DNA of 64,000 bases, taken from positions 3,639,098 to 3,703,097 of the forward strand of contig OX621164.1 of the NCBI GenBank assembly GCA_951640195.1, given 5' to 3'. The position numbers and the translations under genes were made by a program. Below are positions 957 through 34,506 of the stretch, piece after piece. The notes under the pieces are model-generated. The model saw only the letters and a program-made list of their open reading frames with translations, was not told the origin of the DNA and searched no databases. Each line of letters starts with the position of its first letter. Position 1 is the stretch's first letter. This DNA is from Porpolomopsis calyptriformis (taxonomy: Eukaryota; Basidiomycota; Agaricomycetes; Agaricales; Hygrophoraceae).

Positions 957-2107
957 ATGTTCCCCTCCACTATAAAACAAAGTGCAACAGATCTAATGGA
1001 TGGAATACTGAAAGCAAAGAGAATCGTCGTGCTCTGTGGTAAATCGACCCATCATCATGTTTCATTCAAATACTTACCTACTCTCTAGGAGCAGGAATAT
1101 CCGTGGCTGCAGGTATTCCATGTTTTAGAGGACCAGACGGCTTATATACTGGCAACGCACTATCTGGATTTACCGGAGTCAACCTGACTGATCTGCTTAC
1201 TAGCTCATCCCTCGTAGTGAGAAATATATGTTCAAGTGAGGATTAGTTGACCAAGTTAATGTTCTAGACCCAAAAGCAACAATCACTGCATTGTCAGCTC
1301 ATTGCCACCCTTGCTGAGAAAGCGGCGATCGCACAACCCACTGCCTTCCACCATTTCCTTCGTGCTCTAGACCTCCAAGGAGTGTTACTCCGTGTTTACA
1401 CTCAAAATATCGATGGTTTGGAGCTCAAGGCTGGGTTACATATGTCCTCAGAAATTCACCCCAGTGATGGACCAGCCTGATGCATTCCATTGCATGGATC
1501 CCTAGAGGAACTACGATGCCCTGGCTGCTCCTCCATTTTTATCCTCGAACCATACTACCCCTCTTTGAAAGAGGGCCAACTACCAGAATGCACTGAATGT
1601 CAAATCAATATGGAAAAGAGGGTAGAGCAGGGCAAACGCAGAACGACTGTGCCTCGACTCCGACCCAATATCATTCTTTACGGAGAACCACATCCTCGAG
1701 GAGAAGAAATAGCAAACGTGCAGCAAAATGATCTTGGGTTAACTACCACCCCCAGTCGCCAACTAGATCTTCTCCTTGTGGTTGGCACTAGCTTGAAAGT
1801 GAAGGGTACTACTGACTTTATCAAGCAGTCCGCTAGAATCTTAGCAAAAAATTCCCCCAAATCCAGTTTACAAGCATCGCCTCAAGTTATATATCTCAAT
1901 AATACCTTTACAAACACAGCTACGTGGGCTGGTATATTCGACGCTTGGATAGACATGGACTGTGAAGAGTTTGCACGGTTGGCATTGAAAAGGATGGAGG
2001 AGATGATTGCGTCAGGTGAAATGCTCGAAAGCAACCACACTCAGGTTCAGGTTCTCTATGGAGACAGAAAGCTTAACTACAGACCATCATGGAGGTTATG
2101 GTCTTGA
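957..2107 (+). pseudogene. Sirtuin (Sir2 family deacetylase), copy 1, nonsense-broken
   Basis: Exons 957-1038, 1089-1216 and 1268-2107 would encode 349 residues of an NAD-dependent protein deacetylase, most like fungal class I Hst3/Hst4 enzymes. Visible motifs are GAGIS (29-32, NAD binding), an FRGPDGLY block, TQNID (115-119), LHG with catalytic His146, two zinc CxxC pairs (154/157 and 178/181) and VVGTS. In this copy codon 141 is TGA at 1478-1480, where copy 3 has CGA (Arg). The product would stop after 140 residues, before the catalytic His and the zinc site, so it should be inactive. The change is a C to T at a CpG. There are no other breaks, so the lesion looks recent. Confidence 0.87.
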
Positions 2108-2641
2108 TAAAATTACTGAATTAGCATCTATTACGCTGCATGCATGTCGCATCAAACTTTCCACAAATATTAATCAACTTGTATTGCTGCATTCCAAGCT
2201 AGTTACTATATAAGTCTACTACATACGATTTGTGCTAAACCTGTGTAGACATGTTGAGCTGTGTGCAGGTGTAAATTAGCAAGTTCACATGCGCCACTCC
2301 CATCCCATTTTGGTATGCAAATGTGATGTCACGCATAACATATCAAGTTGCTTTGATACTGTATTGATTAACTCCCAGCTATCTTGTCTGTGTATGCGTG
2401 AATATCAACTAGCTGTTATGTACTTATGAAGTGATGTGCTATGAAGTGATGTGTGAGGAGCCTAAGTAGTGATCAAGAGCTGTGACTCACACACGAAACT
2501 ACTTCCAGCACCACAATGGCTATACGCATGCGATTGAATGAATGCTTATTTTTTCACCACATCTAGATAAATTTTATGCTGATTATCTTGTTTTCATGCA
2601 GTTATCCACCCACCCCCAAATGTAACTACCCTTGGAACCAA
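2108..2641. other. Intergenic region between sirtuin and HSFGHS gene 1
   Basis: About 530 bases, AT-rich, with short direct repeats (two near copies of TATGAAGTGATGTG around 2426-2452) and no recognisable gene. It should hold the sirtuin 3' end and the promoter of the next gene. I see no CACGTGA box here. Confidence 0.5.
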
Positions 2642-3726
2642 ATGATGTGTTCTTCTCGATGCTTGGATGCGGATAATAATCGGTGGTCGAACGATCGCTC
2701 TCCTGTTCCACCAAGCGACACCATCTGGCTCTTTGAGGAAATCAGCCACCCTTTCACACAACCTGACTTGACCCTCAAATTGAACCAGCAAAAGCAGATC
2801 ATTTTACATGCTTTTTGCAAAAGCAGAAACAAACATCGACACTACACTCTCCCTCTATCGACCACACTTCAGATCGCTCTTCTTGACCTTGAATACTGGG
2901 CGAATGTTGCTAACCCTCATCCCAGTGCAAATCGTATCACACGTTACCTGGAAAGGCTCAGGTCTGATCTCTGGGTTGAGTTATCACAAAACCATGGCAG
3001 CTTTGGCTCTAGCTTCCAACCTAAAACGACAATACCGTGGGCAGTTAGAATGAATCACTTTTTTGGCCACTCTTTCTTCGGCAGACGGGAGTACCTTCAG
3101 AAATGCAAGGCAAATGGGTGGACTCCATACACCCATGAAGACCCAACCTTATACCGTAAGAGGCAGCTTCTGCATACACAAGCTTCCCTTATCTCATCAT
3201 GCTTTCCAATTCAAACTACATAGAATGGCATACTTTATTCGAAACCCATACAAACTGGCTAAGCAGGGGGTTCCAGCTATGTCTCCAGCAGCTAGAATCA
3301 CACACGAAACCTCCCCGGTTTGACAGAGGGCACTCTGTGACCTGTGCGCTTGCTTTGTTCCTTGGAGTTAACGGTGAGAGTAAATGAAATCAACATCTTG
3401 GCTTAGGGATGCTCTAATGCTATATGCTTCTCTTTGCTACTGGCATCAATGAAAATACAGCCCAACAGTGGGCTAACGATGTTCAGGAGAAGAATATCAA
3501 CCCAGATTCCCATGGATACGGTGTAAATACATCATCACCTACCCATGAGGCTGATCTTGGGTAGGTCTGTAAGACACACATGGTTCACATTCACTCATTG
3601 TGATCATTTAGTATTTCACAGCTAGCAATGAATCTTTCAGCTGATAATGATCAGCCAGTGGGATCCCATGGTGCATTTCATTCAGATGAATTTACCAAGC
3701 TGATACTGATCCAAGATCCAAGCTGA
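2642..3726 (+). CDS. HSFGHS-family protein 1 (unknown function, stand-alone)
   Basis: Exons 2642-3155, 3224-3373, 3461-3560 and 3612-3726 total 879 bases and close in frame to 292 residues. ATG codons at 2642 and 2645 are both possible starts, chosen because paralogues begin at the same place. The N-terminal half carries the shared domain: LLDLEYWA, RYLERLRSDLW, PWAVRMNHFFGHSFFGRREY, a Cys, then EDPTLY. The intron after that Tyr codon (phase 1) falls at the same place in the paralogues at 4214, 7893, 13560 and 17308. No enzymatic motif is visible. A 3' variant may continue to about 3962 through a Glu/Asp-rich stretch encoded near 3789-3830. Confidence 0.68.
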
Positions 3727-4183
3727 GATAGAGGGGGGGCAGCCTCAATTCTCCGATAACAGTGTTACCATTCCTCCACGATTCGAAAGGAAGATGAAGA
3801 CGAAGATGAAGACGAAGATGATAATGAAAGTTTCTTGATGTTTTTTGTTTTTTTACATGCGAACAGCAGCTGCAAGTTACCATGGGACTTACAGATCATT
3901 GTAGCCACCTTTCCTCAGCGGTATACCTCACACCTCCACAATCTGTATCCTTCACTTCAATAAATTATAATGAGGATGATGGTTTTCACCGTAATATTTA
4001 TAACTCCTTCAACCAGATGAAGGAGTAGTGGAATGAATCAAATGGCAAAGAAAACGTCAGGGCTTCTTTGTCACCCTCAAACTTGAGAATACGGCATTCA
4101 TTTATAGCACATGATCTAATCCAAGTCCTGGATAGAATCATATCGTCTTTGTAGCTTTCAAACTCTTTAATCGAATAAATACC
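3727..4183. other. Region downstream of HSFGHS gene 1, with acidic-repeat DNA
   Basis: It contains a GAAGATGAAGAC-type repeat at 3789-3830 that could encode a short acidic tail in an alternative last exon of the upstream gene (open to a stop near 3962). The rest looks like spacer. Nothing else is recognised. Confidence 0.4.
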
Positions 4184-4190
4184 CACGTGA
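4184..4190. promoter_or_regulatory. CACGTGA box upstream of HSFGHS-JmjC gene
   Basis: CACGTGA lies 24 bases before the ATG at 4214, just downstream of an AT-rich TATA-like run (4172-4180). It is an E-box of the type bound by bHLH factors such as Cbf1 or USF. The same core precedes several other genes in the unit. Confidence 0.4.
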
Positions 4191-4213
4191 CCCCCACACA
4201 TACGTTCATTATC

Positions 4214-6893
4214 ATGGCCACCCAACCGATAGCCAACAAAGAAGGAGAGCTATTTGATGATGAGGCTTTATGGCCAGCCAAGACATCCACCCTCTTGAAT
4301 AAACCGTCCAATTTCTGGCGCTTCTCAGAATTATCAACCCAAACAACATTCAAGCTCTTTTTCTACCACAACAACTCACTGCGATCTCGCGAAATACACA
4401 TCCATTACCGCTCTATCCTTGCTTTCCTTGACCTGAGTCATCGCCACAGCTGCCTTGAAGCAGAGAACCAGGTACGACATGCAGGACGAATCAAACAGTA
4501 CCTCCAGAACCTCTGTTTGGCCGTGCAGCATGAGTTGTGGTTTGAGGATCGTAAACTGCTCACTCAAGCATCATTGCGATTGAAGACGGTGAAGCAATGG
4601 GCCGTCAGAGTCTACCATTCATTTGGACACTCTCAAACAGGTCGCCAACTCTATGCCGATCGTTGCAAAAACGAGAACCGTCTGCCTTATGAAGATGACG
4701 ATCCGACTCAATATGGTGAGTAATCTTATCAATATTGGGTGCAACAGCTGATATTAAATCGCTCACTGAAGATTGGAAGAGTCACATATCCAGGGTCGTG
4801 TCATTTGGGAACGAGATGCTTGCGACCGACACTTGGTCAGACTCTCCAGCGACGGCTGGCACTTCAAGCGATGCCGCTCAAGAGAAATCTGACTCACTGC
4901 AATATCTTATTGCGATCGGATTCATCAACCATCCCAATGAACTGGGCCAAGGAGTGAGCGCCGCTAGTCTTCCCCAAAAACGATCTTTGTCCGATGATGA
5001 AGAACCCACGAGTCGAAAAAAACATCAACCAGCTACGATATCTGGTATGTGAAGTTATTCGCATCGCATCATCCTTATGAAGAAGAAGATAACGCATAAC
5101 ATCAGCACCCCTCACCCAGAATAAGCACGACTACTTTACTTCGTTGAGGGGAGTGAACTTTCCCCAGGACGCATCCTCGATTCAATGGGCCAATGGGTCG
5201 CAAACCGTACTTCCATGGGTTCACGTTCCGGGCCATCAAAATGCAGTCCGTCCATCATTTTGTGCTCGTTCTTGATCAGCTAACTGAAGCTTTGTTAAGG
5301 ACGCTAAATTAGTTGAGGTGCTTGCCAAATCACCTGATGGTTCATCTGCAACCCATTCGATAAACAACTGGGACTTGGATGAAACTAACTATGTCGTTAT
5401 CCCACCAAGAGAACCTTCCCAACCACTTCATGCCATCGATGAAGCCGTGCGACTCCATCTCGCTAATCAGCGATGCATTATATTACAGGGTCAACATCTT
5501 GAAGGTCCGGAGACGTTTTGTAAGGAGGAGATCGAGGCAGCAAGGGGTCCATTAAGCCAGCCAGTTCAGTGGCATGGTACGTAAAATCCATCTCTACGAT
5601 TACTGTGGTTTAATATTGTATAGACGCAAGATTGCGTGCAGTCGGTAGGTCCAAGAAGGAGTCAGATGGCATCATCCACAGCCACTCTTCCCTGGGGGAG
5701 TTTATCGAGGCATCTGAGGATGTAGACATCTGTGGAAATATCCTGGATGCCCCTTCACTGAGAAATGCCGCCCCCTCTATTATATGGTAAGAGTGCTGAG
5801 AGCTTGTACATTGGCTTATTTCAACAAGTAACCTTAACAGTCGAATAAGTGACGAAGCACTCGCATTCCAGCTCACAAAACATGAATCATTCGCGAAGTT
5901 TTGGAAGCACCCTCCAAAGGACAAGTCGAAGCATCACAAGATGCCGAATACTCGACAAGAACTAGTCCTTCCAGGGCCACAGGTTATTCGGATGTGCACC
6001 TGGCAAATGATGCAGTGGAACCTGCTGACGCATGCTGGCTTCGTAACATTCCCCCACAAGGATGCTAACGGCTTGTGTACCTGGATCTATGCGCACGCCG
6101 GGATAAAAATTTGGGCCATTATTCGACCTAGATACACAAAAAGTCACAACTCCCGGAACAAGTTGCGCAGCCTGCACAAGGATATTTGCTTCAGTCAACT
6201 ACACCAACTGAATCAACATGCTCAGATTTTCACGACGTTTCTTTCTGCAGGGGAGATTCTGTAAGTTTTTATATTATTAACGCTCTAAAAATTGATTACT
6301 CATGCTCATATATTGATTCTATGTGTCAGAATTATGCCTCCTGGCATTTGGCATGCCGTATACACCCCCACGCCAAGCTATTGTTCGGGAGGTCACTTTT
6401 ATACCTATGAGACGCTTCACCTCACTGAACAATCGCGGGACTTCGACCATATGCATGGTCATTTTTCAACAAATGCAAATCACCACGTCTCAAGGTTGCT
6501 TTCTCGCATGGTTTTAGCGCTTCCACATGTCGCCAAAAGTCGAAGTGAGCACATGAATGAATGATATCCCCTCATTTTTGTTTAAAAGCTAGCTTTCCAG
6601 AAATATATCGACGGCCATTCTTGGCGCTGGCCAGAATGATTCTCAAATCGAATGAGTACCTTTTGCCGGGTGAGCAGAAAAGGCCAGACCTTCCGATGAC
6701 CGAGTGGGATGTCCTTTTTCAGGAGGAAGAAGGAGAAATCAACGAGGCCCAGAAACAGATCAAGGCGATACTAGAAAGGGCAGGAATCAGCCTGACAGCT
6801 ATGGAGTCAGAAGTACTCGTCAGTGGAGAGCATTGGATGGCGCTCAGTGAAGAAAAATGTTTATCCACTGAACTTTTTCTTCCACCGCCATAG
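4214..6893 (+). CDS. HSFGHS-JmjC fusion protein (putative 2-oxoglutarate oxygenase)
   Basis: Exons 4214-4715, 4772-5044, 5106-5261, 5313-5576, 5624-5786, 5841-6260, 6330-6544 and 6589-6893 total 2298 bases, giving 765 residues in frame. Residues about 1-170 are the shared domain (QWAVRVYHSFGHS, then DDPTQY), interrupted by the family phase-1 intron. A polar linker with a basic RKKH patch follows. Residues about 500-640 form a JmjC-like cupin: HKD near residues 525-527 supplies His and Asp for Fe(II), and PPGIWHAVYTP supplies the distal His near 601, followed by SGGHFYTYETLHLTE. The enzyme probably hydroxylates or demethylates a nuclear protein, perhaps histone lysine, but the substrate is inferred. 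The splice at 4771/4772 was chosen because it restores the conserved Trp after DPTQY; the alternative acceptor at 4747 would give a 32-base intron. Confidence 0.8.
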
Positions 6894-7892
6894 GGACAGT
6901 TTCTATTCATTATCTATTGATGTGCTGCTATCATATGCCTGTACTTTGTTACAGTCTTACAATCGATACAATTGAGTTGGACTTTGATGCTCATGTCTCA
7001 CGTGAAAAAAAAAAAACATACATGAATACATACATTACCTTGCCTGCGATGAAACCAATTACAACCTCATGTAACCTAGTAGATATGCCGAACACAATCT
7101 GCTTTATTTACATATACAGAAAGGTGGCAGCTTCTGGACTCCCTATCCCTTAGGGAGATAGAGCCCCACGTTGTACTTGCGGTTAGTGTTTGGCCCAGCA
7201 GATGCGCTACACCCTTGAAGCTATTATCTCCCTCGGTTCACCCGTGTGGTTGAATGGTTGGGTCGCATTGGTTGGCTGGGTGGGTTGCGCGCAGCTAACT
7301 CAGCCTCTGTCTCTCGTAATAGAGCTGCCTTCATTTTCTTCTTTTTATTCCGCTTCCACTTGTTTTGTTTGTAGTTTTTCCCTCATTCAACCTGTGCTGT
7401 TGAAGTGGGAGAGAAATAAGAATAAGAATAAGTTAATAAATCAATACGCAATAAATAAATTCACGTTGAGTAGCCTGCCTACTTGGAGGTTCCGAGGTTC
7501 GTACCATGGCCACACGTGTAGATGATTGTCTGCTATACAGTAGTCAAAGGATGCTAAGTTATCGAGCGGCTGAATGAACTAACTTGTTTGGCTGCACAAT
7601 GCATGTTGGCAACGGAGCCCTAAGCCTCTGTTCGATTTCGCCTGCGAATGAAGAAGAAATCTCCTCTGTGGCTGATCATCATCATCAGTCTAGATATTTG
7701 ATATCTGGTGTGGCATGAGACCCATAGATCCCATTCACGTACCAGCTTTTGAGGTAGAATGTGCCAATGCGACATCCAATGGTGATTTATCCACATGTGT
7801 TGGGTCGATACTTATATCGAACTCAGGGATCTTGACTGTGGCTGATCGTTTAGTCAGGATATCTGATGTAGCATGAGAGCGATGGATCCCAT
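6894..7892. other. 1 kb convergent intergenic region, possible degenerate retroelement
   Basis: It lies between two convergent gene ends. It contains TCACGTGA running into an A12 run (7005-7016; 15 A in copy 2), a G/T-rich stretch at 7230-7300, and an (AATAAG)n/(AATAAA)n stretch at 7410-7460 of the kind found at retroelement tails. GGTTAGTGT near 7180 also occurs in the LINE-related element at 21355-22239. I see no coding gene. A SINE remnant is possible but not shown. Confidence 0.35.
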
Positions 7893-8658
7893 TCACACAC
7901 CAGCTTGTTGTGCCAAACAGGTGTCGCCTTTGTCGAGAAGGTCGGCTGCAGAGAGTAAAACGTTTGAAGGGCCCACAGAGATATGTTCCCTCGCTTTGTT
8001 CAGTGCGCTTGCAAGGCTGTCTATAATATGATGACCCGAATTCATCCAGGTATTTTGTTTTTTATATTTGTTGAAAATATCTGTCCATCCTATTATAGAA
8101 CGTAGTATAAACCATCAGGACTTTGGGAGCGATTCATCACGTACGATATTCCAATGGGTCGCCATGCATATAACTCTCCCAGCCCTGTTCTCTGCATGTG
8201 GTGAGATAAGCGTCACGGTCAGGCTTCGAGTGGCCAAAGGAGTGCATCGTTCGAACGGCCCAAGGCCGGGTACTCCAAGGTTGTTCATTAAAGCTGGAAG
8301 GGGGTTCCATTGCGAAGAATTCTTCAAGGAGGTCATCCCTTAGCAGCTCTAAATAGCGCGACATCGATTTATCTCCAGAAACCAGGCTAGCCCAATATTG
8401 AAGATCAAGAAACGCAACCTGTTGGCACAGCATGAATGGCAAGGAAAAGTGGCGAGACTGATTCGTGATGATATTAAAGGCAATGAATTCCAATGGAAAA
8501 TACTTCCAGCGTATCTTTGTATCGGAACCCATCGGTTTGAACAGGTAGTTCTTTGAATTCTCCAATTCAAATAGACACAGCCAGCTGCTTGGTTGAACCT
8601 CTGAGATGCCATCCTGCCATCTATGGGTATCGTTGAGAATAAAATCGAGATTTGCCAT
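7893..8658 (-). CDS. HSFGHS-family protein 2 (unknown function, stand-alone)
   Basis: Exon 1 is 8658-8145 (514 bases, the same length as exon 1 of the paralogue at 2642) and exon 2 is 8089-7893, together 236 residues in frame. The domain is complete: LDLQYWA, RYLELLRDDL, RPWAVRTMHSFGHS, then DPLEY and, after the phase-1 intron, the conserved Trp. The tail of about 60 residues is unlike the JmjC or protease partners of the fused paralogues. It is either a stand-alone domain or a gene that lost its partner. The function is unknown. Confidence 0.68.
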
Positions 8659-9896
8659 TGGATTCGGATTCGGTAGTGCTTTTGGAACTTGTGAATGTTT
8701 GTTAATCCTATATTTGGTAGGTGTTCAAATCGAGCCCAGCATAACTTATGCTTGGCTGCGCACTTCAAAAGAGGCAGTTTGGACAATCGTGAGTGTAATT
8801 ATAAAAGAAGGATGAACCATAAAATCAAGTGAGATGTTGAGGTCATCTCCATTGGAACTAAAATCGATGAAATTTTATCACCGAAGGTCTCTTTTTCTCG
8901 TTTGAATAGTAGCGACTTTCTCATTGTATTACAGCATTCGTAACTGAAATTTACTGATAAACAGATCAACTGGCACTGATTCGTGGTGATCATGCAATGA
9001 TTAGATGTACTTTGGGCATGGTGAAGTCAATTTAATGTAGACTAGTCAGCTGCCGCCTTAGCTAAATGTAAGTTTTCCAATTTGCTAATGATCCGCACCT
9101 ACAAACCTACTCTGTGGTATTGTTTTTCAGTAACTAGAAATTTTCATCACTGAAAAGATGTGAGGGGGTGATTGAGTGATTTAGTTACTGTTTTTCGTTG
9201 ATTTCCCTTCCCTTCCTTCCAACAGTCTCATTTTGGCAAAGGTTTGCTAATGTCTTCAACCTTATCGATAGCCTGTATTATGGAACGCAATACTTGCCTG
9301 CTAAGAAAACTTTAAATGCCGTCAATCTACGACATGCCGAGGTAAAGGGCCTCGGGTACACCTAGTATAGCAACATAAGATTAAAGTATGGCTGAAAGAC
9401 ATCTTTGTGCTTCTTCAGACAACTCAGAATCACTTATTTCTCACTTTGTAATGGAGCGTGACTGCCATCCTTGATGATGTTGGAGAAGCGGTGAATGGTT
9501 TGCACCTTGGTGAGTGGTCATCTGGATACCAACACAAAAGGTCATAATGAAAATTCAATTCATAGGGAATATCCGACGTGCGTGAGCAGATGAAATGTAG
9601 GAAAAGAGAGTGCGGGAGTGAGAATGGGTACGAGGGCCACCCTGAGAAGAAGGTAAAGAGGAAGTTGGCTAAGGGAGAACAAGGTGGAATCTACAGACGG
9701 GAGGGATGGCAAGGGTCACCATCCATGCTTCTCTACTGCATCCGAGAGATTGCGTGCCGAATCTTGATAACCATATTATTCAACACAGGGGCCTGATATT
9801 CAGATTTTTTAATGAAAGCCTTACCGTTCGATCCCAACCTCAGCATTTCCATCCTCTCGCCGTAACCGTTTGAAATCGTTTTGATCTCTCTGACCC
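8659..9896. other. Gene-poor region with a dispersed repeat copy
   Basis: About 1.2 kb with no gene I can support. It should contain the promoter of the minus-strand gene starting at 8658. It includes a copy of the dispersed repeat at 9283-9370. A 72-codon open stretch at 9578-9796 is rich in Arg/Lys/Gly but starts at a non-ATG codon and has no homologous motif, so it is not called. Confidence 0.45.
9283..9370 (+). repeat. Dispersed repeat, copy A
   Basis: The stretch starting TATGGAACGCAA, passing TTGCCTGCTAAGAAAAC and ATGACATGCCGAGGTAAAGG-like sequence and ending in GGGTACAC matches 24236-24327 with few differences and one small insertion. It is non-coding and probably a transposon remnant. 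The copy 2 equivalent is at 42908-42995. Confidence 0.65.
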
Positions 9897-10462
9897 CTAA
9901 CCATCAATCCCATGGCTCTCCGTCGACTGTGGTCCAATGGGGTCATTATCAGTCCCCGGCTGGGTTGGCGCAGTGACGATCCCACAGTGGATTGTTTGCT
10001 GGATCTCTTCGGCTATCTTGCCATCGCCATCCGTTGTCGACTGGGTGTTTACCGACGGCTCTGCTATGGTTGTCATCTTCGTGTTCTTTGAATTGACATA
10101 GACGGTCGGTAGTGTTTCTTCAGTTTCCTCATCCGACAAAAATTTGGCCTTCCATTGCTTTCTTCTTCTCGGGCTGACAGCTTTGGGGATGTTCATCTCA
10201 TTCGCCTAACACGTCCCCTCTGTCAACCTGAAAAAAAGGAAAAGAGCAAGCTCACCTGGTGATGTTGGGCAGCGTGACTTTGATTCCCCGCAGATCCTGG
10301 TCCCATGGGGTTTCCCTCACCCTCCATCTGGTCTGAGGTCGTAACCCTCTGAGATTGAGATCTAGTGGCCAAGTGAGGCGACGCGGACACAGTCATGAAG
10401 AAGACTGCTGGAGATGGTCGTAGTAGAGGACCGTTCAGGTTCACCCTGTCAAACTGTGGCAT
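9897..10462 (-). CDS. Small hypothetical protein
   Basis: Exon 1 is 10462-10256 and exon 2 is 10205-9897, with a 50-base intron. The 171-residue product keeps frame. The N-terminal part is Ser/Gln/His-rich, and exon 2 opens with a basic SPRRRKQWK stretch that could be a nuclear localisation signal, followed by an acidic and Thr-rich tail. No known domain is recognised. The gene is divergent from the F-box gene at 10578, sharing a 115-base promoter that holds one CACGTGA box. Confidence 0.5.
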
Positions 10463-10478
10463 TTTAAGCGACCCTAGC

Positions 10479-10485
10479 CACGTGA
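10479..10485. promoter_or_regulatory. CACGTGA box between divergent genes
   Basis: CACGTGA lies 17 bases upstream of the minus-strand start at 10462 and about 93 bases upstream of the F-box ATG at 10578. It matches the core found upstream of the JmjC, PHD, TET and BAH-PHD genes. Confidence 0.35.
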
Positions 10486-10577
10486 ATAATCGATTTTAGT
10501 TGAGAGTGAGTCAAAGTGTCGAGGTCGACTTAGTATATAGAGCAGCCGAAAGTCTCCCAAAACCACCATCATCCATC

Positions 10578-11381
10578 ATGATTTCCCTTCCCATAGATCT
10601 GTGGCTCAAAATTATCCCCTACATTCAGAACTCGTCCCAAGATCTGCTCGCACTGGCACTAGTAAACAGGAACTTTGCCTCCGTTGTGTTTCCATTCCTG
10701 GCCCGATACATGCTTGTCGATCCAATGCCAAAGCCGCAACACCCGATTCGTTTCCTTGAATTCACCTCCATCAGGAATTGGCACGGCGGTTGGGTTCAGC
10801 AAAATTTGAAGAGGGCTGGGAGCAACCTGAGGGTCACCAGGTTGGGATTCAATACGTCCGGTTGTCAGTGTTTCAGGTTATTCCTATGTGTCTGGGTTTT
10901 ATCGCTAACCCCGCATGAAGATGACTGCGTCGAACTCACGCACCTAAACTTTTTCCACAACGTGTGGCTCAGGGAAGTTACCCTCTCTGGATTACGACTA
11001 AGACGGCCGGGTAACGTCAACCTAATCGATATCTCGAGGATATTTGCTGGATGTTCTATGGAAGATTTGACCAAGTTCACTCTCGATCTTACACGGGCCA
11101 ACTGGGATAACTGCATCAAAGTCAATTGGGCCCTCCTCGACGCATATCTTTCCTCGAGACCTTCCCTTCAATCTGTGCACATTTTAGGCCCTCTGTCTGT
11201 GATGGAGGTCAGCGATATCATGCCACTGGTCACCGCGAAGGGCATCCTTGATGTCACGTTCAGGCCAACTTTGCCGGAACCATCGGTACCATTGGTACCA
11301 TGGCCATCTATATCTGGGCGGATACGTAGGAGGAAGTTTCGAAGAAGGAAGGGGAGTGGAACGGGGCAGGATACAGGTTGA
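10578..11381 (+). CDS. F-box protein 1 with leucine-rich C-terminal region
   Basis: A single exon of 267 residues. The start at 10578 begins directly with the F-box (MISLPIDLWLKIIPYI, then LLALALVNRNFASVVFPFL), the SKP1-binding motif of SCF ubiquitin ligases. An upstream in-frame extension exists but has no ATG. The middle has irregular leucine-rich segments typical of basidiomycete F-box proteins, and the C-terminus is basic (RRRKFRRRKGS). It is paralogous to the inverted gene at 12158-12901. Copy 2 has Arg changed to Gln at its equivalent of base 11320. The target is unknown. Confidence 0.78.
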   Translation: MISLPIDLWLKIIPYIQNSSQDLLALALVNRNFASVVFPFLARYMLVDPMPKPQHPIRFLEFTSIRNWHGGWVQQNLKRAGSNLRVTRLGFNTSGCQCFRLFLCVWVLSLTPHEDDCVELTHLNFFHNVWLREVTLSGLRLRRPGNVNLIDISRIFAGCSMEDLTKFTLDLTRANWDNCIKVNWALLDAYLSSRPSLQSVHILGPLSVMEVSDIMPLVTAKGILDVTFRPTLPEPSVPLVPWPSISGRIRRRKFRRRKGSGTGQDTG

Positions 11382-12157
11382 ATAGGAACGGGGCAATGTT
11401 ATCCTGTAACAATCTGTTGAAATGGATCCGTTATGACCCTGGCTGATACTGACCAGTCCGAAGTGGAAGATATTGTCCTCTTGAGACTACCCAAGCCAAA
11501 GTCAGAGAACACAGAGAGAGATCGTTGTCATTGTTACTACATACATTTGCATCTGTGTCTACTTTTTATATGTATGCGACATCAAAGGGGTCAGGGCTTT
11601 GTGATCCTTTGATAGCACGATAGCCGATTGGTTGTTTGAAAAGATAGTTGAGACGGGATTGGGCCAAATACTTCACCAATAAAGGTGCGGAGCCATAAGG
11701 CTTCCTTTGCAGCACGAGTTGCTACATATTTAGCTTTAGGGATCTCTCCGATGGGAAATGGCAGGGCGAATCTGCGTGGGTGACAAAAGCAACAGTTCGA
11801 TATTACTTGCAGCCGCTGCGCAATCCAACAATCTTTCTTCTCAGTAATATCGTGCTATCAAAGGATCACAAAGCGCTTCGCTTTGTAGGTTAGACCCCTT
11901 CGATGTCGTATACATATAAAAAGTAGACACAGATGCAGCAACAATGACAACGATCTCTCTCTGTGTTCTCCGCCTTGGGCTTGGGTCGTCTCAAGAGGAC
12001 GATATCTTCCAATCCAGACTCATCAGTATCAGGCAGGGTCATCATACGCGATCCATTGCAACAGATGGCTACAGGATAACGTCACCACATTCCCATTCAA
12101 CCCGTATCCTGCCCCCTTCCACTACCCTTCCTTCTTCAAAACTTCTTCCTGCCTCGC

Positions 12158-17650: not shown

Positions 17651-17655
17651 TCAAA

Positions 17656-21340: not shown

Positions 21341-21354
21341 AAATGTGTGTCACG

Positions 21355-22239: not shown

Positions 22240-22248
22240 AAATGTGTG

Positions 22249-22256: not shown

Positions 22257-22328
22257 GTCTAAGTTGAAGCCCACTGTGAGTTGCAAAGTCGTCAAGTACT
22301 ACCCATTCTTAAAGTGAAATGCCTGTGA

Positions 22329-24149: not shown

Positions 24150-25402
24150 CAGCATATCTACTGTATAGAGGCTATGTCGCAGTGAAATATGTTTAGATTT
24201 TGATTTTTTACAAAGCTACTTCTTCGTTGTATACAGTATGGAACGCAAGATTTGCCTGCTAAGAAAACTTTAAATGCCGTCAACCTGTCAATCTATGACA
24301 TGCCGAGGTAAAGGACCTTGGGTACACTGTATGATATTTACTGTTTGAAGTATAGTAATACATGACAATCCGAACAGAAAAAAAAAAAACCTACACCTTC
24401 GCGCTCACGCGAGTATGAGAGACGCGCCCCGATCAAACGATTGAGCTGAACCCGCTCCTTTCGTTTCTGACCATATCGGTGACGAAACTTTGCGGGAAAG
24501 TTAGCGCGAAGGAGAATCCCATGTTTAAAAAAAACTCACTGGAAGAATTTGCGGGAAACGCGGATAAAAAATCGCGCGGCACGGACGGTGAGTGTTTTGA
24601 GGAAATGGGCTGGGTCCGAAGGATTTTTACGCGTGACAAATGGCTCGGGGGGATGCTCCGGGAGATGGATGTTAAGAATGTCACCTCCAGCTAAGTAGAG
24701 GTTGCATTGATTGAACTGAATGGCGGACATGGCGGTGGTGAAGCGGGATAGGGCAGCGCAAGAAAGAAAGGTGGTGTGTAATAGAAAAACAAAGACTTGC
24801 TCGCTGTACTCTTTGCAATGTCCCTGCATTGTATGAATGTATGCACTTCGAGTTTCATTGAGGTAGTGATATTCTCATCCTAATACTCCCTTGATAAACT
24901 TGAGCCTGTTATGTCCCATACAGCTTGTAGTTGAGGAGGAAAGTGTCTGATTCTGTTAGCCAAGTAGGTTCCTTGGCTGTAGTGTCTGCACTTTACACAG
25001 TGATCAGCATGAGCACGAAGGGTTGACGAATGACTCGATGCCTAGAAGTTAGAGTTGTAGCCATTCTTTAGTGCGTTTCACTGCAATCAGGGTGCTGGTT
25101 GAAGTTTCCTGACTTAGTCATTCACTCGTGCCCACTTCAACACAAAGCAGCAATTGAACGACCATCCAGCTCACAAGTATCGGCTTCGAAACTCACTGAG
25201 AGACCTCCAGGTTAACCTAGAGATTGGTTGGTTCACCATGCAAGGCTAATTCAATAGCAATCTGCAACTCAAGCTCAAATAACCATTACAACGAAAAGAA
25301 ATTAAATTTGGAGATTAAAGTGAGGTATCTGAATTAAATAAAGGGAATGAAAGCGTACGAGAGTATACGTGCATGAGTATGATTGAGTGTGCGAGAGTGT
25401 AT
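24150..25402. other. Non-coding region after TET gene (end of segment missing in copy 2)
   Basis: It includes the second dispersed-repeat copy at 24236-24327, an A12 run at about 24380, and a CpG-rich stretch at 24400-24680. The long open frames there have no recognisable motif. The segment ends at the deletion breakpoint seen in copy 2. Confidence 0.45.
24236..24327 (+). repeat. Dispersed repeat, copy B
   Basis: It matches 9283-9370 with a small inserted stretch (CCTGTCAATC region) and scattered transitions. It is non-coding and lies just downstream of the TET gene. Confidence 0.65.
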
Positions 25403-25639
25403 CAGGGACCCATTATCAACAAAATGACCAAAATGCTGGCACAAAATTAATTCAAAATTCTTTGGGGGATCGTTAGGGCATCCCAATAAAATCAGTTTAA
25501 GCCATAAATTAAAAAAATCGGCGGTCCCATTCTTGAGATATATGTAAAATACTCCATTTATACCATTATGCAGCCCAGCTATTGTATTGCACTCTATAAA
25601 TCACAATTTCATGTCCATTCGATAGGCACAGTGAACTAA

Positions 25640-27640
25640 TGGTGGGCCCACAGAAAATTCCGATTTTTAGAGCATTTGGTATGTCGTGGTGGAAGATAGT
25701 AAGGTTTTAGGAGGAGGCATAAGTATAAGTAGCTATAGACTGCTCTAAAAATCGGGGTTTCATATTCAATCGATAGCCCCAGTGTCATAGAGGTGGGGAA
25801 TACAAAAATCCCGATTTATGGACCATTTGGGGTACCGCAATCAGTGATATAAGGGGTATGGGGGGGTATATCTCCAACTTATCACAGAGCTCTTTAAAAA
25901 TCAGGATTTTATGTTCAATCGATAGCACTAGTGTCACAGATACTGGGAATACAAAAATCCTGATTTATAGACCATTTGGGGTACCGCAATAAGCTATATA
26001 AGGGGTATGGGGGGGTATATCTCCAACTTATCACAGAGCTCTTTAAAAATCAGGATTTCATGTTCAATCGATAGCAGTAGTGTCATAGAGGCTCGGAATA
26101 ACAAAATCCTGATGTATAGGCAGAATAAGGTACCGCAATAAGCTATATAAGGGGTATGGGGGGGTATATCTCCAACTTATTACAGAGGTCTTTAAAAACC
26201 TGGGTTTTATATTCAATCAATAGCCCCAGTGTCATAGAGGTGGGGAATACAAAAATCCTAAGTTATAGACCATTTGGGGTACCGCAATCAGTTATATAAG
26301 GGGTATGGGGGGGTATATCTCCAACTTATTACAGACATCTTTAAACATCATAATTTCATGTTCAATCAATAGCACTAGTGTCATAGATGCTCGGAATAAC
26401 AATATATGGGTAGAATAAGGCACTCCAATAAGGTATATAAAGGGTATGAGGGAGTATATCTCCAACTTATCACAGACCTCTTTAAACATCACAATTTCAT
26501 GTTCAATCAATAGCACCAGTGTTATAGATGCTCGGAATAACAATATATGGTCAGAATGAGGTACTGCAATAAGCTATATAAGGGGTATGGGGGAGTATAT
26601 CTCCAACTTATCACAGACCTCTTTAAACATCACAATTTCATGTTCAATCAATAGCACCAGTGTTACAGATGCTCGGAATGACAATATATGGACAGAATGA
26701 GGCACTGCAATAAGCTATATAAGGGGTATAGGGGGGTATATCTCTAACTTATCACAGAGCTCTCTGAGCATCAGGATTTCATGTTCAATCAATAGCACCT
26801 GTGTTACAAACATTGGGAATAGTCCAATCATCATGTGTAGATAGACTGGGGTGCCGCAAGAAGTATACAGGAGGTAGGGGGGGGTATACCTTCAAGTTAT
26901 CACAGAGCTCTCTGAGCATCAGGATTTCATGTTCAATCAATAGCATTAGTGTTATAAACATTGGGAATAGTCTAATCCTCGTGTATGGATTGACTAGGGT
27001 GCCGCAATAAGTATATAAGATATCATGGGGTGGTATACCTTTAACTTATCAGAGAGCTCTCTAAGCATCGGGATTTTATGTTAAATCAACAGCATTAGTG
27101 TTACAAAGGTCAGGAGTAGTCTAATCCTCATGTGTGGAATGATTGGGGTATAGTATGTAAGAAGTATCGGATGATATACCTTCAACTTATCACAGAGCTC
27201 TCCGAGTATCAGGATTTTATGTTCAATCAATAGCATGAGTATTACAAAGGTTAGGAATAGTTCAATCATCATGTGTGGATTAACTAGGGTGCCGCAATAA
27301 GTATACAACAGGTATGGGAGGGTATACCTTCAACTTATCAGAGAGCCCTCTAAGCATCAGGATTTTATGTTCAATCAATAGCATTGGTGCTACAAACATC
27401 AGGAGTAGTCCAATCCTCATGTGTGGAATAATTGGGGTACCGTAATTAGCATGCAAGAGGTATCAGAGGTTATACCTTCAACTTCTCACCGAGCTCTCTA
27501 ACCATCAGCATGTTATGTTCAATCAATAGCATTAGTGTGATAACATCCCAGAATAACCACATCCCCATGGGCAGACTGATTGGGGTACCACAATGAGCAG
27601 TGTAACACATATAGGTAGAATAGACCTGTGAATATATAAT
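25640..27640. repeat. Satellite of about 12 units, 141-149 bases each
   Basis: The landmark TCTCCAACTTAT (drifting to CCTTCAACTTAT) recurs near 25871, 26020, 26169, 26318, 26459, 26600, 26741, 26889, 27038, 27179, 27327 and 27474. Early units are 149 bases and later ones 141-148. Units also share TTCAATCRATAGC, GGGGTACCGCAATAAG and a run of G. In better-conserved units AAATCAGGATTT and AAATCCTGATTT form a 12-base inverted repeat about 55 bases apart. Divergence grows towards the large minus-strand gene, whose 3' end abuts the array. Confidence 0.9.
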
Positions 27641-27655
27641 CTTCAAATCGATACA

Positions 27656-30600
27656 TTAGCTACTAGATTGCTCTGATCCTGGCTCATCTGTGTACTCTAA
27701 TGAATCGGAATCGGAATCAGACTCTAAATCTGCCCGTTCCCTAGCAGCCTTGACTCTTGACTGAGATCTACCTACTATATGTCTTCCTGAACCTGAATCT
27801 TCTCTCTCCGCATCTTTCCTAGCAGCGTTCATTCTTGACCGAGTTATCCGCACACCACTCACCCCCTTTCTTCCCTCGTCTTTCTGGGCAGCCTTGGCCT
27901 TTGAGCGAGTAACCCTAACCTGTTGCTCTTTCCCGCTCTCTGAACCTGAAGGATTGTTGTCTGCTTTCTGTCTCACAGGAGGCTTTCGTTTTTGGTAGAT
28001 TTTGGCAGACTTTCGGCTCCGAATAGGTGGTTTTATCGATCTCCCCAAGGTTTCATCTAGTCGTCTCTGAAGTATATTCTTTGAAGCATGAGGCCTTTTT
28101 AGGACCTGAGTTCGTGGACGCGCAGCCACCTCTTTCCCAATTTCTTCAATCCGATAGAACTTTGAATTCGAAATAAAGTTGATCTTGCCTGATTTCATCC
28201 CCCATATGACTTGTTTCCCCTTTTTATTCGATAGGCCACCTACAGGAAGGCATTGTAACTGGCCAAATATATTGTCCAATTCACGGCAGAGCTGATCACC
28301 TTCATCCATATCCCAATCCACAAGATATTGGTGGTAAGTGGAGATATATCCTCCAGGCTGGGTGTATGGTTTCCAGACTGAATTCTCTGGGATCTGGATA
28401 GTTTGTTCAGGGAAGAAGGTTGCCCGACGTGCTGAAAATGATAGATCATGGGAGTGACTCAAAGGAAGCTTTCCTTTAAGGCCACAGCTCGAAGGAAGGA
28501 ATCGGCAATGGTCAATGCCTATGATATGCTGAATCGCAGGTACCGTCCAAGTCTCCATTGCTTCCTGAACTGTGGTTGGCTTGGGTAAAACACCTGCTGA
28601 TGCAAACTGCTCTGCCAGACTTAGCCACAGCTGATGCGTGAACTCAACAAACAACAGCTTTGTGTAAAGCAGTTCAGGAGCTTCCCAGTCATCATCCAAC
28701 CTCCATTCCCTAAGGAAAATCTCTGGCTCGGTTTCCAACAGTTTCTGAATTCTTGACCAAGATGGATCAGGACCCCAAGGGCACGCATCTTGCTGATACA
28801 TTTGAATAAGGTGATATGGCTGGTTGGCTTGAGTTGCCTGTGGCTTCTTCAAGGACTGTCCATACGCTTGGATAACCTCAGCTGGATCCTCCTCCGGTAG
28901 TTCTCTTAGAGATAGCACTCCTTTCTTCAACTTGAGGTCGTGAAGAAAGAACATTCCGAACCTCCACATTATCGAACTGAAACGAAGGTCTCGCAACACA
29001 TCATTCAAGAATGTGTGCTTTATCCTTGGCGTGACCATGGTGTGCTTAATCAGGTGGATGATAAGCGTAGCCATCATCCCATAGTTGCTTGGTCGATTTC
29101 GTGAAAGGTGTAGTTGGACGTTTTGAAACTCTGCTAGCCTTCTTGCCAACAACTTGAAAAAGAGGCTTGACTTGATCCAAATGATAGGGTCAGACGACAT
29201 ATAGTCTTGTGCCTGGCAATCATTAGACATTTCTAGTTTGCAGTTATTTCGCTGCTTACCTTTTCAGATGCTACATCAAGAAGCTTTATAATGGCTAACC
29301 CACTCCCTCTAACTTCTTCTCTAACGCCGAATGACTGGATTTGAGAAGATTGAAACAGCTTTTTCCAGTGATCACAGCTAGTCATGAATCGGTCATTTGT
29401 CTTGACTGCATCACAGTCATCACATAGGTAGTTCGTTTGGCCAGGAAGTCGCACCACCTCAAAGCAAAGGTTGTAGCTGGATCGGAAGCAAAGGTGTACA
29501 AGCCGACTTTTCTTCAACTTGGTTTCAGCCTGTCTCCCTCCATAAGCTCCAAACATGGCAGTATAATGGGTCATTCCTTTTTTCATCCCCATAAGGTCGT
29601 ACGAGTCGTCGATCCTATCTAACCTCCACAGCCCTACCAATGGCTCCTGATCCTCCCTAGAAGGAGGATGGTATGAAATCCCAAGATCAAGCAAGAGTTC
29701 TCCATGCGATCGGTCCTTCATATAATCCCAGTCCATGTTAGGAATCATCGAACAGAGTGCCTGATATATATTCTCGGTTGGGTGGTGCTGCTTAGAGAGC
29801 AGTTTGATACCTCGAGCATCTACAACAAAGAAAAAGGACCCGAATCGGCCTAGGAGATCGGGCTGGTTATTTATGATGTCGCAGAGAGTGGTTCGCATGG
29901 AAGAAAATGCTTCAGGTGTGAGGGGAATGGTCTTGGTCGTACGTCTTGTCCCTATTTTCCATTGGAGATTACTGACGCTTGTAGGAAGATACTCCATAAT
30001 TCCGGTGTAGTTGGCTAAAACCACTGGCAGAGCAGGCATGATCACTTGTGAGAACCACAACTCCTGTACCTCCCTTGGCATCAGAGTAGTCATTCTATGC
30101 GTTCCTGGGTCTTTCCTAATCATACGAGGGAAGAAGACGTAGGTGTTAAATTGGCCTGATCCTTGACCCATCTGCCCGAAATGGGTATGTGGCAAGGCAC
30201 TAAGTGGATACCTTTTAGACCTCTGCCTAGGATTTCGAGTGGTAGGTGGTTGTAGAACCTGGACATAGACATGATTGTTGATAGAGAATGGAGGTTTGTC
30301 GTCTAACAGTGGAAGAAGGTGAATATTGATTGGACCAATGAACTGTGGTTTATGCGTGACCCATATGACGCTGTCGATATCCACCGACACTGACACTTCT
30401 TCATCGTCCAGGTTTACTCTATCCTTCTCCAAGTCGAAGTAGATGAATTTGTTGTTGCGTGCTTTACCTTTTACAAACACACCCTGGCTCTCTGATGTCC
30501 CTTCCACCCCTCCCGCCTCATCCAACATATCCTGAGCACCCATCACAGTCACATCTGGGTTGTCCATAGCTGGTAGGGAATTCAGCACCTCAGAAGAATG

Positions 30601-33011
30601 AGAAGATAACGAGGATGGGTATGCAACTGGAGATGATGGTAAACATCCACTTGCTTGATCACTTGAATCCCAGTGTGGAAGAAGGTGGTCATTGAGGAGA
30701 ACCGGTTCCTGGTTATTGAACATAGAGAAAAAATCGGCCTGCAACCTATAGCCTCTATCCCTCCAGATACTCCAGTGCTTGCCCAATACAAGCATTCCAT
30801 TGGTGTCAAAGGTCCACGTGTTTGGAATGATATCAGCTTGATCCTTGGAGCAAACCAACATAGCTGATTCGTAGTCATCAAAAGGCTGCTCATCAACGCT
30901 TGTTGCTAATGCTTCTTCACCCCCATTCCCATTTAGCTCAACCTCTGGAAGTTGGATTTCAGGTAGAGACCTTCTGGAAGGCTGAGGTGGTAGGTTGATT
31001 ACAATGGAATCATCATCGTTGTCATCATTGTCATTGTCATTGTCATTGTTGTCGTCATTGCTGGCATTGCCATCCTTGTCGTGACTATCCAGAAGATGGC
31101 CTAGTTGATTAATATAGGTAGCCTCTTTAGATTGATTATCACAGGTAATCGGAATGAGATAATACTCACACTTCATACGAGCAGTTGCAAGCGCAAGTGC
31201 TATTACCTCGAAACGCTTGAATTTTAAAAGCCCAGCCTTCATATCATTCACAACCTCAGAATTGGGTTCCATGGAATACCGAAGCAGGGTCTGAGTCTTG
31301 TTCCAGAAGTCATATGATTTTTGTACAGTTTGAAGTGCAGTGAGAAATATTCTCTCTCGCATCGCATGAACACATTGCAATTTGGGTGCAAGTGGGTGTT
31401 GGTTAATGTCTGTGGAATACATCCAACCATTATCAAAGATTTCTTGGCAAAGCGATGCCATCCAGGAACCAGTGTCGGCCTCACTCTGTTGAAATATGTA
31501 TATGAATATGCTTCTTCTGTATAGAAACGAGATTTTCACCGTATTCCAATTCGGTTCGATTACTTGGGGACCTCGCTCATCCAACTCACTACCCAGGATC
31601 CACCCAAACACATTAGCAATAGCCCTCCAATAGTAGTTGCCATTCCACTCCGTCCAATCTGAGTACATATTGGTTTCGAGTGGAGCTCCATGGCTAAAAA
31701 CAAGAACCTTCTCCTGCTGGTAATCAAATAAAGCTAGCCTTTGGGTTGCAGAAGATTGCCATGATAGTGGAGGGAAAAATAACACAGGCTTTTTCGGGAT
31801 AGCAACGTGAGGTGGAAGAAGGAGAGTTTTATGGATTTCGGTAGACAGGATGTCTTCTTCTTCTCTTATTACCCTGCTCACCGTTTCCGAGTCTAGATAG
31901 TAGGAATATCTCTGAGATGGCATCTGGGGTTGAATGGACATATACCATGATTTCAAAAGGTAAATTTCTATGACCGCGTGATCCAGGTGGTTTCCAGGCT
32001 TAGCAGATCCCAATGATTGACAAGCTGAAGCCCATATCCTTGGATCTGCTAGCTTCGTGTCTAATATCCTTAATGAGTCTAATCACCACCAATAATATAA
32101 GAACATACCTATAAAAAGCTCTTGCTCAGATCGTGGTAGATTCAATCGAATGGCATTTTTTGCTAGTAAATGAGAATGAGCGCTGTCACTTTCACTGGAT
32201 CCAATGAAATCTGATCCGTTATTGCTAGCTGGCGACAATGATCGGCTTGTTGAGCTTCTAAAAGTTTAGTATTTAACCTAACATTTCGAATGATAGATTT
32301 ATTCACCGGTGTCTGGTTTCAAATCGCGAGTTGTTCCTTCTAATATCCACCGAAGGCTCTGAAGGAGAGCTATAATCACTAAACCTAACCAGTATTAATA
32401 CGCAAGTATCTTATGATTTCTCTTAAAATACATACCATGCTTTCGCCACCTGGAAAATAAATAAATGTAAGTTATTATTGTCATAGGTTAATTGAGACAT
32501 ACAGCGTCATTATCCTTTCTACTTATTGCGTTTTGGACCCTTGAAGGACCTGGCTGGGGACCTAAGGGAGCCAATGGAGGTATCGATATATATTGCTGAT
32601 CCGAATTCTGGATGTTAAGATGATTTAGGCTAATTAACGTTGTCTGTAATAATGTGAGCACTTTAACCTTGAAAACAGATATACACTTACTGAGTATACT
32701 GGCTTTTTGTTGATTAATATATGTTTTTTGGAAGGCATATGTTTTTCTCCTAGCATCGGTATTGGCATTGGCATCTTCTCTGCACAAGGCATATTCAGGA
32801 TATTACGTATATCACTATCATCTGAACCACTAGAAGTCGAATCCCCTTCCTGGTTTATTATGGTTTTATTAGCCTCGTAATGATTTAATTGTGTGAATCG
32901 AATTAGATACATAACTACTAGGGATAGGCTTACCTTGGCTAGTGAGGACATAGCTATGATCCTATCTATATCACTGTCATAATCTGCACCTTCATTTGCC
33001 TGGTTTGCCAT
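27656..33011 (-). CDS. Very large protein of unknown function
   Basis: One multi-exon gene from ATG at 33011 to a stop at 27656, roughly 1,600 residues. Exon 1 is 33011-32934, and several small Ser-rich exons follow. The main exon ends near 29268, where a 49-base intron (with an in-frame stop) joins it in phase to the final long exon. A second 57-base intron near 31492-31548 is hidden because it is open in frame. Visible features are an Asp/Asn run at about 31010-31070, a Cys-x2-Cys at about 29415, and a C-terminal basic tail with three RxTRSxxxAA-like repeats ending in Ser/Asp/Glu. A segment around LPPH, FPPLSW, LALFDYQQEKVLVF and EADTGSW faintly resembles a Ulp1 fold lacking the catalytic Cys. 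Copies differ at K/E (30845). Confidence 0.65.
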
Positions 33012-33140
33012 ATTGGAGGTTAAGATCGAGAGCTATGTTTGTGCAATAGTCGAGACAAAGTGTATCTACATTCACGTGACATATATATAGCTGTGGGAAT
33101 ATAATACGAATAATCAACATTGGTCCGTAGATTTATTATT
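33012..33140. promoter_or_regulatory. 129-base bidirectional promoter with TCACGTGA
   Basis: It separates the divergent starts at 33011 (-) and 33141 (+). It contains TCACGTGA at 33072-33079 followed by ATATATATAG, a TATA-like run. Both genes must draw on this short region. It is identical in copy 2/3 at 58066-58194. Confidence 0.55.
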
Positions 33141-34506
33141 ATGGCACCTACAACCGAGGAAAAACAATGGAAATCTGCAAAAGTCGTAGAATACCTCGAG
33201 GTTCCTAATCCAAATGATGGTGAGATATCACCTATGCCTTGTTCTATTTGTTCCGAATCAAAACTTTATAGGCTCTCCTTGCAAATTCGTTAAGAATGAC
33301 TTGTAAGTGTTTATCGATAATGCTTGAATAGTAGTCATTTGATTATTTCCCTCAAACACAGCTGCCTCATCCGTCACCTTGGCCTCCATGCAAAGGAAGA
33401 AAATAATATTATAATGGACGACTACTGGAAAGGTTTGATCCTACAAATAAGAAAAACTACTAAGGTGATACACCTGCTCAAGCTACCCTACCCAATGTTG
33501 ACAATGTGCTTTAGAACAAGTATCTTGCTAAGGTTTCATGGATGTATACAGCCAAGCAGTTGTTGGAGAGAAGTGATGTTAAGGCTGATACTAAAAGGTT
33601 GCATCTCAAAACCTACTCCTTCTCCTGTCACTCTATGTTCTTCTTACTCTTGACAGGTATATAAACACATTTGGAAAGCAAGAGCTGTGTGGCTCTGATT
33701 CTACAGATATCATTGATGCGCAAGCCTTGGAAGGTGAGGGTTATTATATCGAGAAGCAGATATAAAAGAATGAACTGAACTGAACTGAAAATTAAACTGT
33801 AGATACAATCGACATTGTTATTATTAAAAATCAGATTGAAGATCAACCTCCAGTAACCGCGTATTACATGCGGTAAGCTTGACGATAATACCAACCCATC
33901 TATTATACTAAAATTTCTATTAGATACTTCTGGGATGGGCATAGGCAGGCATTGAAGGTGCATTCATTGAACTAAACATATACCCTGTAGTAATCTATTG
34001 GGTGGTAGGGCGAGCCAGAAATATGTGGCGCAACTCACTGTTATTCACTTTGGTCCCCCGATACAGAGGAACAACGCTACTGCTGGTCCTGCAAAAGATG
34101 GTCCCATCTTACTTGCCTAGGAACCCCTGCCAACATTACCCAGCAGCAGTATCTTAACAATCTCTATGCTATAGAGAAGTTTGCCGACACCCCAAAAATT
34201 ATACTTCAAGTTGCTTTCCAACCCACAGCTAGGGGAGGTCTCACTTATTTTACAGCCGGAAATATTAGGATCGTGAACAAGGCTAGAAAGTTGCTTTCTT
34301 CACAGGAACGCAGTGTCGTCCAAGCCTCTGGATGGATAGCTGCTCACCTCATTGAGGAGTCTCGGTTAAATATGATAGACACTGACTGGGAAAACTGGCT
34401 TGAGGCAGAATTCGGCATAGATAACACAGACTCTTATGAGCCATTAGTCGTTACAGACCAAACATACTATACTTGCCCTCGGTGTAGCTCAGATTTGCTT
34501 ATTTGA
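33141..34506 (+). CDS. BAH-PHD chromatin reader, copy 2 (complete)
   Basis: Exons 33141-33219, 33272-33302, 33362-33464, 33515-33597, 33657-33733, 33803-33872, 33924-33957 and 34009-34506 total 975 bases, 324 residues exactly in frame. Residues about 25-150 form a BAH domain (DDYWKGLILQI, AKVSWMYTAKQLL, YYMRYFWDG). From residue 160 a PHD-type finger shows Cys165/170, Cys184/187, His192 and Cys195, with a late CPRC pair at 315/318. BAH and PHD modules bind histone tails or nucleosomes, so a nuclear reader role is likely. It starts 129 bases from the divergent large gene and ends 72 bases before the sirtuin. Confidence 0.83.

Follow-up and report, generated by a model that had tools for sequence, protein, structure and literature searches.

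The HeT-A, TART and TAHRE elements of Drosophila form outward head-to-tail arrays in which the constant end of each copy lies toward the chromosome body and the outer ends are variably truncated, and the group of HeT-A adds to chromosome ends by reverse transcriptase (RT); the Y′ elements of yeast are repeated, gene-bearing units present at many chromosome ends. Here we analysed a 64,000-nucleotide stretch of DNA from the mushroom Porpolomopsis calyptriformis (the window; C2:3639098-3703097 in a genome of 33,544,692 bases and 17 contigs), which lies 95-160 kb away from one end of the 3,798,509-base contig C2 and consists of fragments of one repeat, with three truncated unit copies represented. 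We consider it probable, at roughly 60%, that this block belongs to a mobile element 49-52 kb in length, which joins by one exact end onto chromosome ends that are broken or eroded, and we think that the chromosome-end location is the main point of the finding.

The Drosophila elements are retrotransposons (PMC5537684) of a fly without telomerase. Outward head-to-tail arrays, a constant end toward the chromosome body and variably truncated outer ends are common to them and to the unit described here; in the latter, however, no RT was found, the length is about 50 kb and the host has telomerase. It is laid out like the Drosophila telomere retrotransposons with no visible polymerase. Bdelloid terminons are giant (up to 40 kb), telomere-associated elements with extra genes, which form 5′-truncated head-to-tail arrays and carry a Penelope-type RT, a hammerhead ribozyme and 3′ telomere repeats (PMC6431247). 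The unit shares with terminons one constant end, variable truncation and outward arrays at chromosome ends, whereas no RT, hammerhead ribozyme or telomere repeats at the junction were found in it. MoTeR elements and the telomere-failure arrays of Pyricularia resemble it in their location at fungal chromosome ends, their truncated copies and their internal relics, but their boundaries are telomere repeats, the unit of the foxtail strain measures 4 kb and MoTeRs are retrotransposons (PMC8381367). Element-borne genes of TET/JBP type are also present in basidiomycete TET-carrying DNA transposons (KDZ/Kyakuja and others), which belong to known transposase or Helitron lineages (PMC12730594), whereas no KDZ match lay, by position, inside the unit. 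Fungal subtelomeric RecQ helicase repeats are, like the unit, gene-bearing repeats at many chromosome ends (PMC7473861). In contrast to these repeats and to Y′, no helicase was found in the unit. To our knowledge, an exact joining end with many different flanks is not a known feature of either of them. The unit resembles several known kinds of element and is fully matched by none, and no description of it was found by our searches among open-licence papers of PubMed Central.

Comparison of the window with itself revealed identities of 99.84% (positions 1-16831 and 33623-50456), 99.91% (25401-38946 and 50455-64000) and 99.94% (1-5324 and 58677-64000), which confirmed the tandem repeat that a model had proposed from the letters of the window (the original prediction). 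The unit length of 25-34 kb given there agrees with the 33.6 kb of unit 1 and the 25.1 kb of unit 2, but these units are that short because they are truncated. On C16, a contig of 219,000 bases which is a tandem array of the unit (70 kb read), each unit measures 49,281 bp and four exact ends follow one another at this spacing. Compared with the C16 unit, 15.6 kb are missing from unit 1 and 24 kb from units 2 and 3, and some units on C1 are 2.9 kb longer (about 52 kb in total), the extra sequence looking like a degenerate Copia element. Positions 957-33141, previously taken as the unit, run from the sirtuin start of one copy to the PHD gene start of the next and are no natural unit. The units, their constant ends and the features next to these ends are located in the window as follows:

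1..25401, + strand: distal part of unit 1, which begins outside the window at C2:3630876 and is cut at element coordinate 33,639
25402..50455, + strand: unit 2, truncated at element coordinate 25,051 (25.1 kb)
25402..25429, + strand: constant (exact) end of unit 2, TCAGGGACCCATTATCAACAAAATGACC
25737..27599, no strand: subterminal array of repeats of ~149 bp each, at a distance of 335 bp from the constant end; a second copy lies at 50791-52653
27656..31941, - strand: gene T, predicted to encode 1,394 amino acids in 3 exons (open reading frames, ORFs, at 27656-29263 and 29233-32082; second copy shifted by 25,054)
50456..64000, + strand: unit 3, which runs on to C2:3714606 and is truncated like unit 2
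50456..50483, + strand: constant end of unit 3, located by pattern search

Since units 2 and 3 have their truncation in common, unit 3 is probably a tandem duplicate.

The unit has one exact end, W|TCAGGGACCCATTAT (W, A or T), and its opposite end is variable. The unit junctions of the window start with TCAGGGACCCATTATC, as does the array where it borders on the chromosome body at C2:3630876. When the first 28 bases of the exact end were searched with up to 3 mismatches, 104 copies were found in the genome (48 plus, 56 minus; 100 of the 104 were listed), and a reversed-pattern control gave 0 matches. The ends whose flank was read are preceded by 43 distinct 12-bp sequences, in which the base before TCAGGG is A in 24 and T in 19, with C at position -2 in 27. 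Fifteen distinct junctions (two of them 6 bp apart in one stretch) lie inside another copy, where the continuation is known; here the displaced sequence started with T in 15/15 and with TC in 12/15. As a random site of the element reads W|TC in only 3.9% of cases, the join prefers W|TC targets. A telomere repeat array was absent from all 43 flanks read. Scanning of window positions 25380-27800 against Rfam (E≤5) gave three chance-level matches and no ribozyme at the exact end, the Rfam scan of the window at gathering scores found nothing, and folding of the terminal 200 bases was not better than that of shuffled sequences. The large element of the original prediction is borne out by the recurrence of the block at many places with different flanks; the defined ends expected at such non-homologous loci were found on one side, the other end being variable.

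Within 250 kb of the ends of contigs C1-C14 we located 79 of the listed ends, and in 69 of them the exact end points toward the chromosome body (p 3e-12 versus a coin; the length of C14 is not fixed and its single copy was counted as left). At least one outward unit was present within 250 kb at 24 of the 28 ends of C1-C14, the right end of C14 not being assessable. The starts of C1, C3, C4, C5, C8, C9, C10, C11 and C15 lie inside a unit, and those of C6, C7 and C17 showed no exact 30-base match to the C16 unit. The telomere repeat (TTAGGG)4 was not found anywhere in the assembly, and a looser pattern produced a single 19-bp match, inside C12. A loss of telomerase was considered for this lack of repeats and dropped, since a TERT RNA-binding domain was found with a WIDDY motif nearby. 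The true ends may be telomeric and missing from the assembly, or the array may itself form the end; we prefer neither alternative. Calculated from the 100 listed ends, this one giant, gene-rich element would make up, as an upper estimate, about 2.8 Mb of the 33.5-Mb genome.

No constant second end was found. Short copies, 90-99% identical to the unit and located from near contig ends to mid-C9, retain the exact end and are cut off near coordinates 145, 194, 346, 682, 1092, 1362 and 1529. Eight short copies, seven of them distinct as two have one junction in common, were examined without finding a clean target-site duplication, and one short-copy type has an imperfect 17-bp candidate (13/17 matching). 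All 19 measurable head-to-tail intervals are a single unbroken unit that starts at coordinate 1, their length equals the cut coordinate of that unit within 665 bp (deviations put down to the copy number of a 219-bp repeat), and left-over second halves of interrupted units were not seen in any of them. The shortest steps of the stacking pattern are found at C7:2215088, where just 14 bp (by eye) of the exact end remain, and at C6:2274957, where 57 bp of it remain; in both places a further exact end follows directly.

By analogy, an anatomy of one exact end, a target preference and arrays of truncated copies that point outward is the one seen in elements that add to chromosome ends, and a one-ended transfer of the TCAGGG end at W|TC is favoured since no RT or Rep-helicase was found. 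In such a transfer, a 3′ end finishing in ...WTC (or W) would be joined to the TCAGGG end of the element by the ~1,400-amino-acid protein T; the element would then be copied in the outward direction, up to the point at which copying ceases or the end is eroded, and the next copy would be added onto the resulting stump. Later tandem duplication of units was also seen. The arrays would be kept as CpG-methylated subtelomeric chromatin, on whose state the sirtuin, Ulp1, JmjC-like and TET-like cargo may act. If end addition is true, it is an unusual way of extending chromosome ends. The further proposal that the element represents a new class of giant elements that lack an RT of their own, combine T-mediated W|TC end addition with their own chromatin toolkit and serve as a telomerase-independent back-up of end maintenance appears rather doubtful to us.

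Several observations weigh against end addition. The orientation is opposite in 10 of the 79 near-end copies, and large pairs of facing copies are present inside C1 and C9. The contig starts that could be placed stop inside units, so that the real chromosome ends are not visible, and with a telomerase gene present the fungus need not rely on the element. The 19 head-to-tail intervals are not all independent, some being tandem duplicates. Neither a polymerase nor a helicase nor any transposase that could be recognised was found in the unit; T as modelled by AlphaFold has a mean predicted local distance difference test (pLDDT) of 34, which predicts no fold, and in one older C7 copy the C-terminal part of T contains two stops and shows a ratio of non-synonymous to synonymous substitution rates (dN/dS) of about 1.

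A telomeric retroelement akin to terminons or HeT-A would also produce a constant end with variable truncation and outward arrays. Here a minus-strand RNA with the 3′ end GGGTCCCTGA would be primed by the chromosome 3′ end, the truncation would be ordinary 5′ truncation and the polymerase would be supplied in trans. The overlap of 1-5 nucleotides at the join, the reading of T toward the constant end, the tandem repeats just inside that end and the possible imperfect target duplication of one copy type are all consistent with it. However, no RT (RVT) was detected among the 20 ORFs and 8 gene models scanned from the unit, and of the four [FY]xDD strings in its ORFs of at least 60 amino acids none stands, by eye, in an RT context; the genome scan for RVT_1 scored 150 of 820 candidates, and a helper may be encoded elsewhere. 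The lack of a hammerhead ribozyme by Rfam, flanks read without telomere repeats, and units that reach 52 kb and carry genes on either strand also argue against such a retroelement, which we regard as unlikely.

An exact end that starts with TC and lands before T recalls a Helitron-like rolling-circle element, whose 5′ TC end would be joined at A/T sites by a Rep from Helitrons elsewhere and whose replication would run to the chromosome end for want of a 3′ stop. Helitrons do read past their own 3′ end and capture genes (PMC6431247), and the genome has 35 matches to Helitron Rep (36 candidates, all scored). None of these matches, however, is on C16, which is itself an array of the unit, and the Rep loci coincide with none of the 100 listed exact ends; no Walker A string occurs in the unit ORFs of at least 60 amino acids. 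The preceding base is A or T and not A alone, C is preferred as the second target base, and the short copies end variously, with no consistent CTRR end. We consider this explanation quite improbable. That there is no mobile element at all, and that a failure of telomeres led, as in Pyricularia, to subtelomere amplification through recombination or break-induced replication, is very unlikely: several arrays do look like plain tandem duplicates (spacings of 29,310 bp on C5 and 49,281 bp on C16), and Pyricularia has subtelomeric tandem arrays with truncated copies, reminiscent of TERT knock-outs (PMC8381367), but the boundary there is a telomere tract, whereas here a single exact sequence, which holds no more than one imperfect telomere hexamer (TCAGGG) and is also present in mid-C9, is joined to 43 different flanks in an assembly devoid of (TTAGGG)4.

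For the addition of the element to chromosome ends, T is the best candidate for a mobility protein. Gene T adjoins the exact end and reads toward it, and all 48 copies that were scored, out of 75 candidates, have its 949-amino-acid ORF open. The 949- and 535-amino-acid ORFs of T had no Pfam match, relatives of the former gave chance-level Pfam matches only, and the same held for a PDB sequence search with the T alignment (best E 0.11). Seven homologs of T were obtained among 8,000 scored candidates, none of them labelled NCBI, nr or UniRef, and a search with the T alignment (8,000 candidates scored) returned the same 7 proteins. The best homolog of T (67% identity) and the best homolog of the element sirtuin (71%) are both labelled as a JGI contig of 9,176 bp; taking this label as one contig, T and the sirtuin seem to sit together in another species. 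The next eight sirtuin matches bear jgi, lgn or ena labels only, and named mushroom proteins follow at ~40%, some of them annotated as HST3 or hst4. Within the genome, a sirtuin lies within 9 kb and on the expected side for 48/48 scored T copies, and 65 of the 74 SIR2 matches were assigned to units by position. The separate occurrence of the genes at syntenic sites, named beforehand as the case that would speak against an element, was looked at for the sirtuin within this genome and was not seen.

The cargo genes of the unit are listed below:

957..2107, + strand: sirtuin of unit 1 (SIR2, 109.9 bits), with a premature stop in this copy
2645..6893, + strand: one predicted gene, perhaps two, for an unnamed protein type and a JmjC-like oxygenase (JmjC, 22.2 bits; cut-off 24)
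7224..8658, - strand: by eye, a paralogue of the unnamed protein whose coding starts at 2645
10578..11381, + strand: F-box-like protein, weak (17.9 bits; cut-off 24.3)
12158..12901, - strand: partner, in inverted orientation, of the preceding F-box-like gene (DNA 82% complementary; the Pfam scan was made for the first gene only)
13560..15566, + strand: AT-hook-like protein (motif KRGRPRK read by eye; no Pfam match)
15701..17308, - strand: Ulp1/C48-type SUMO protease (Peptidase_C48, 75.1 bits)
17717..20867, + strand: predicted gene(s) with a Pro/Ala-rich stretch and a cysteine-rich part (the latter scanned, no Pfam match)
23416..24165, + strand: TET/JBP-like dioxygenase exon (Tet_JBP domain at 23512-23907, 28.1 bits; cut-off 34.9)
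33141..34507, + strand: PHD-like protein gene of unit 2 (PHD weak, no BAH match, exons predicted); its unit 1 counterpart ends near 885

The gene list of the original prediction was thus upheld for the sirtuin and the SUMO protease, whereas its TET/JBP, JmjC and PHD members and the first of its two F-box genes scored below their cut-offs (PHD, 17.5 bits against 24). A BAH domain, which had been assigned to a BAH-PHD reader, was not found by Pfam in the predicted gene model, and the AT-hook protein kept its motif by eye and had no Pfam support. In the TET-like exon, HxD and a later H/R were read by eye, and no TET structure was matched by sequence. Those parts of the unit that lie beyond the window contain an alpha-kinase-like ORF (34.7 bits; cut-off 21.3) and a large P-loop-like protein (by eye). 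That prediction was right about a large element with chromatin genes, but missed the exact end, the ~1,400-amino-acid gene, the position at chromosome ends and the 15-24 kb of the unit that the window lacks. Units 1 and 2 carry the premature stop in the sirtuin, which starts at 34579 in unit 2, whereas the sirtuin of unit 3 (from 59633) has none. In the C16 copy of the sirtuin, LHGS and TQNID motifs are kept and GIPCFR is found in place of the usual sirtuin motif GIPDFR, a change which, judged from sequence, may alter the binding of nicotinamide adenine dinucleotide. An 82% inverted repeat within the unit (window 10566-11292 and 12187-12913) is made up of the two F-box-like genes.

CpG transitions accounted for 43/58, 35/43, 41/51 and 32/52 of the substitutions relative to the C16 unit in four C2 units, which share ancestry and do not give independent counts, and for 40/73 in an older C4 copy. 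Since the compared copies differ mainly by CpG transitions, the DNA of the unit is likely methylated and deaminating. The observed/expected ratio of CpG was 0.73 in the unit and 0.29 in the 149-bp repeats beside the exact end (C16 copy), compared with 0.89 in a C2 flank, 0.96 at the TERT locus and 0.54 over seven loci around classical TET matches. In the TET-like exon of the older C4 copy, 4 non-synonymous and 3 synonymous changes gave a dN/dS of 0.37 from few sites. The editing of its own chromatin state by the element, as put forward in the original prediction, is not supported in that form; the evidence for it is indirect and consists of the decay by CpG transitions and of catalytic motifs read by eye. 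The unit could serve as a natural test of whether a selfish element manages its own methylation by means of the sirtuin, SUMO-protease and TET-like genes on board.

The absence of a visible KDZ-like transposase, stated in the original prediction, agrees with our Pfam scans, in which all 19 KDZ transposase matches of the genome (20 candidates, all scored) fell outside C16 and, by position, outside units. The genome has 7 TET/JBP matches over the cut-off, three of them ~1.6 kb from KDZ matches; these classical pairs, at C3:1394972, C14:425708 and C2:2266459, represent a known association.

Facing plus and minus ends at 28.7-28.9 or 51.8-52.7 kb had suggested a ~52-kb terminal-inverted-repeat transposon, a reading that was dropped because, at the two right ends tested out of nine facing pairs, the sequence read (3.0 and 4.4 kb) was that of a reversed unit and no short repeat. 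A flank ending in TTTTTTGCACA precedes the exact end at many positions, including C4:72100-75100 and the left side of 8 of the 9 facing pairs; behind it, the copy is cut at coordinate 1362 in two places read, with the imperfect 17-bp duplication around it. This flank is possibly a subtelomere common to several ends and copied between them. Six exact ends at C5:33208-179758 follow one another at intervals of exactly 29,310 bp, which seems to be the result of a recent tandem amplification and distinct from the end-addition pattern. The same large pair of facing units with matching inverted flanks was observed inside C9 (505605-558261) and inside C1 (3543808-3596457), which suggests either a segmental duplication or an ancient fusion of two ends.

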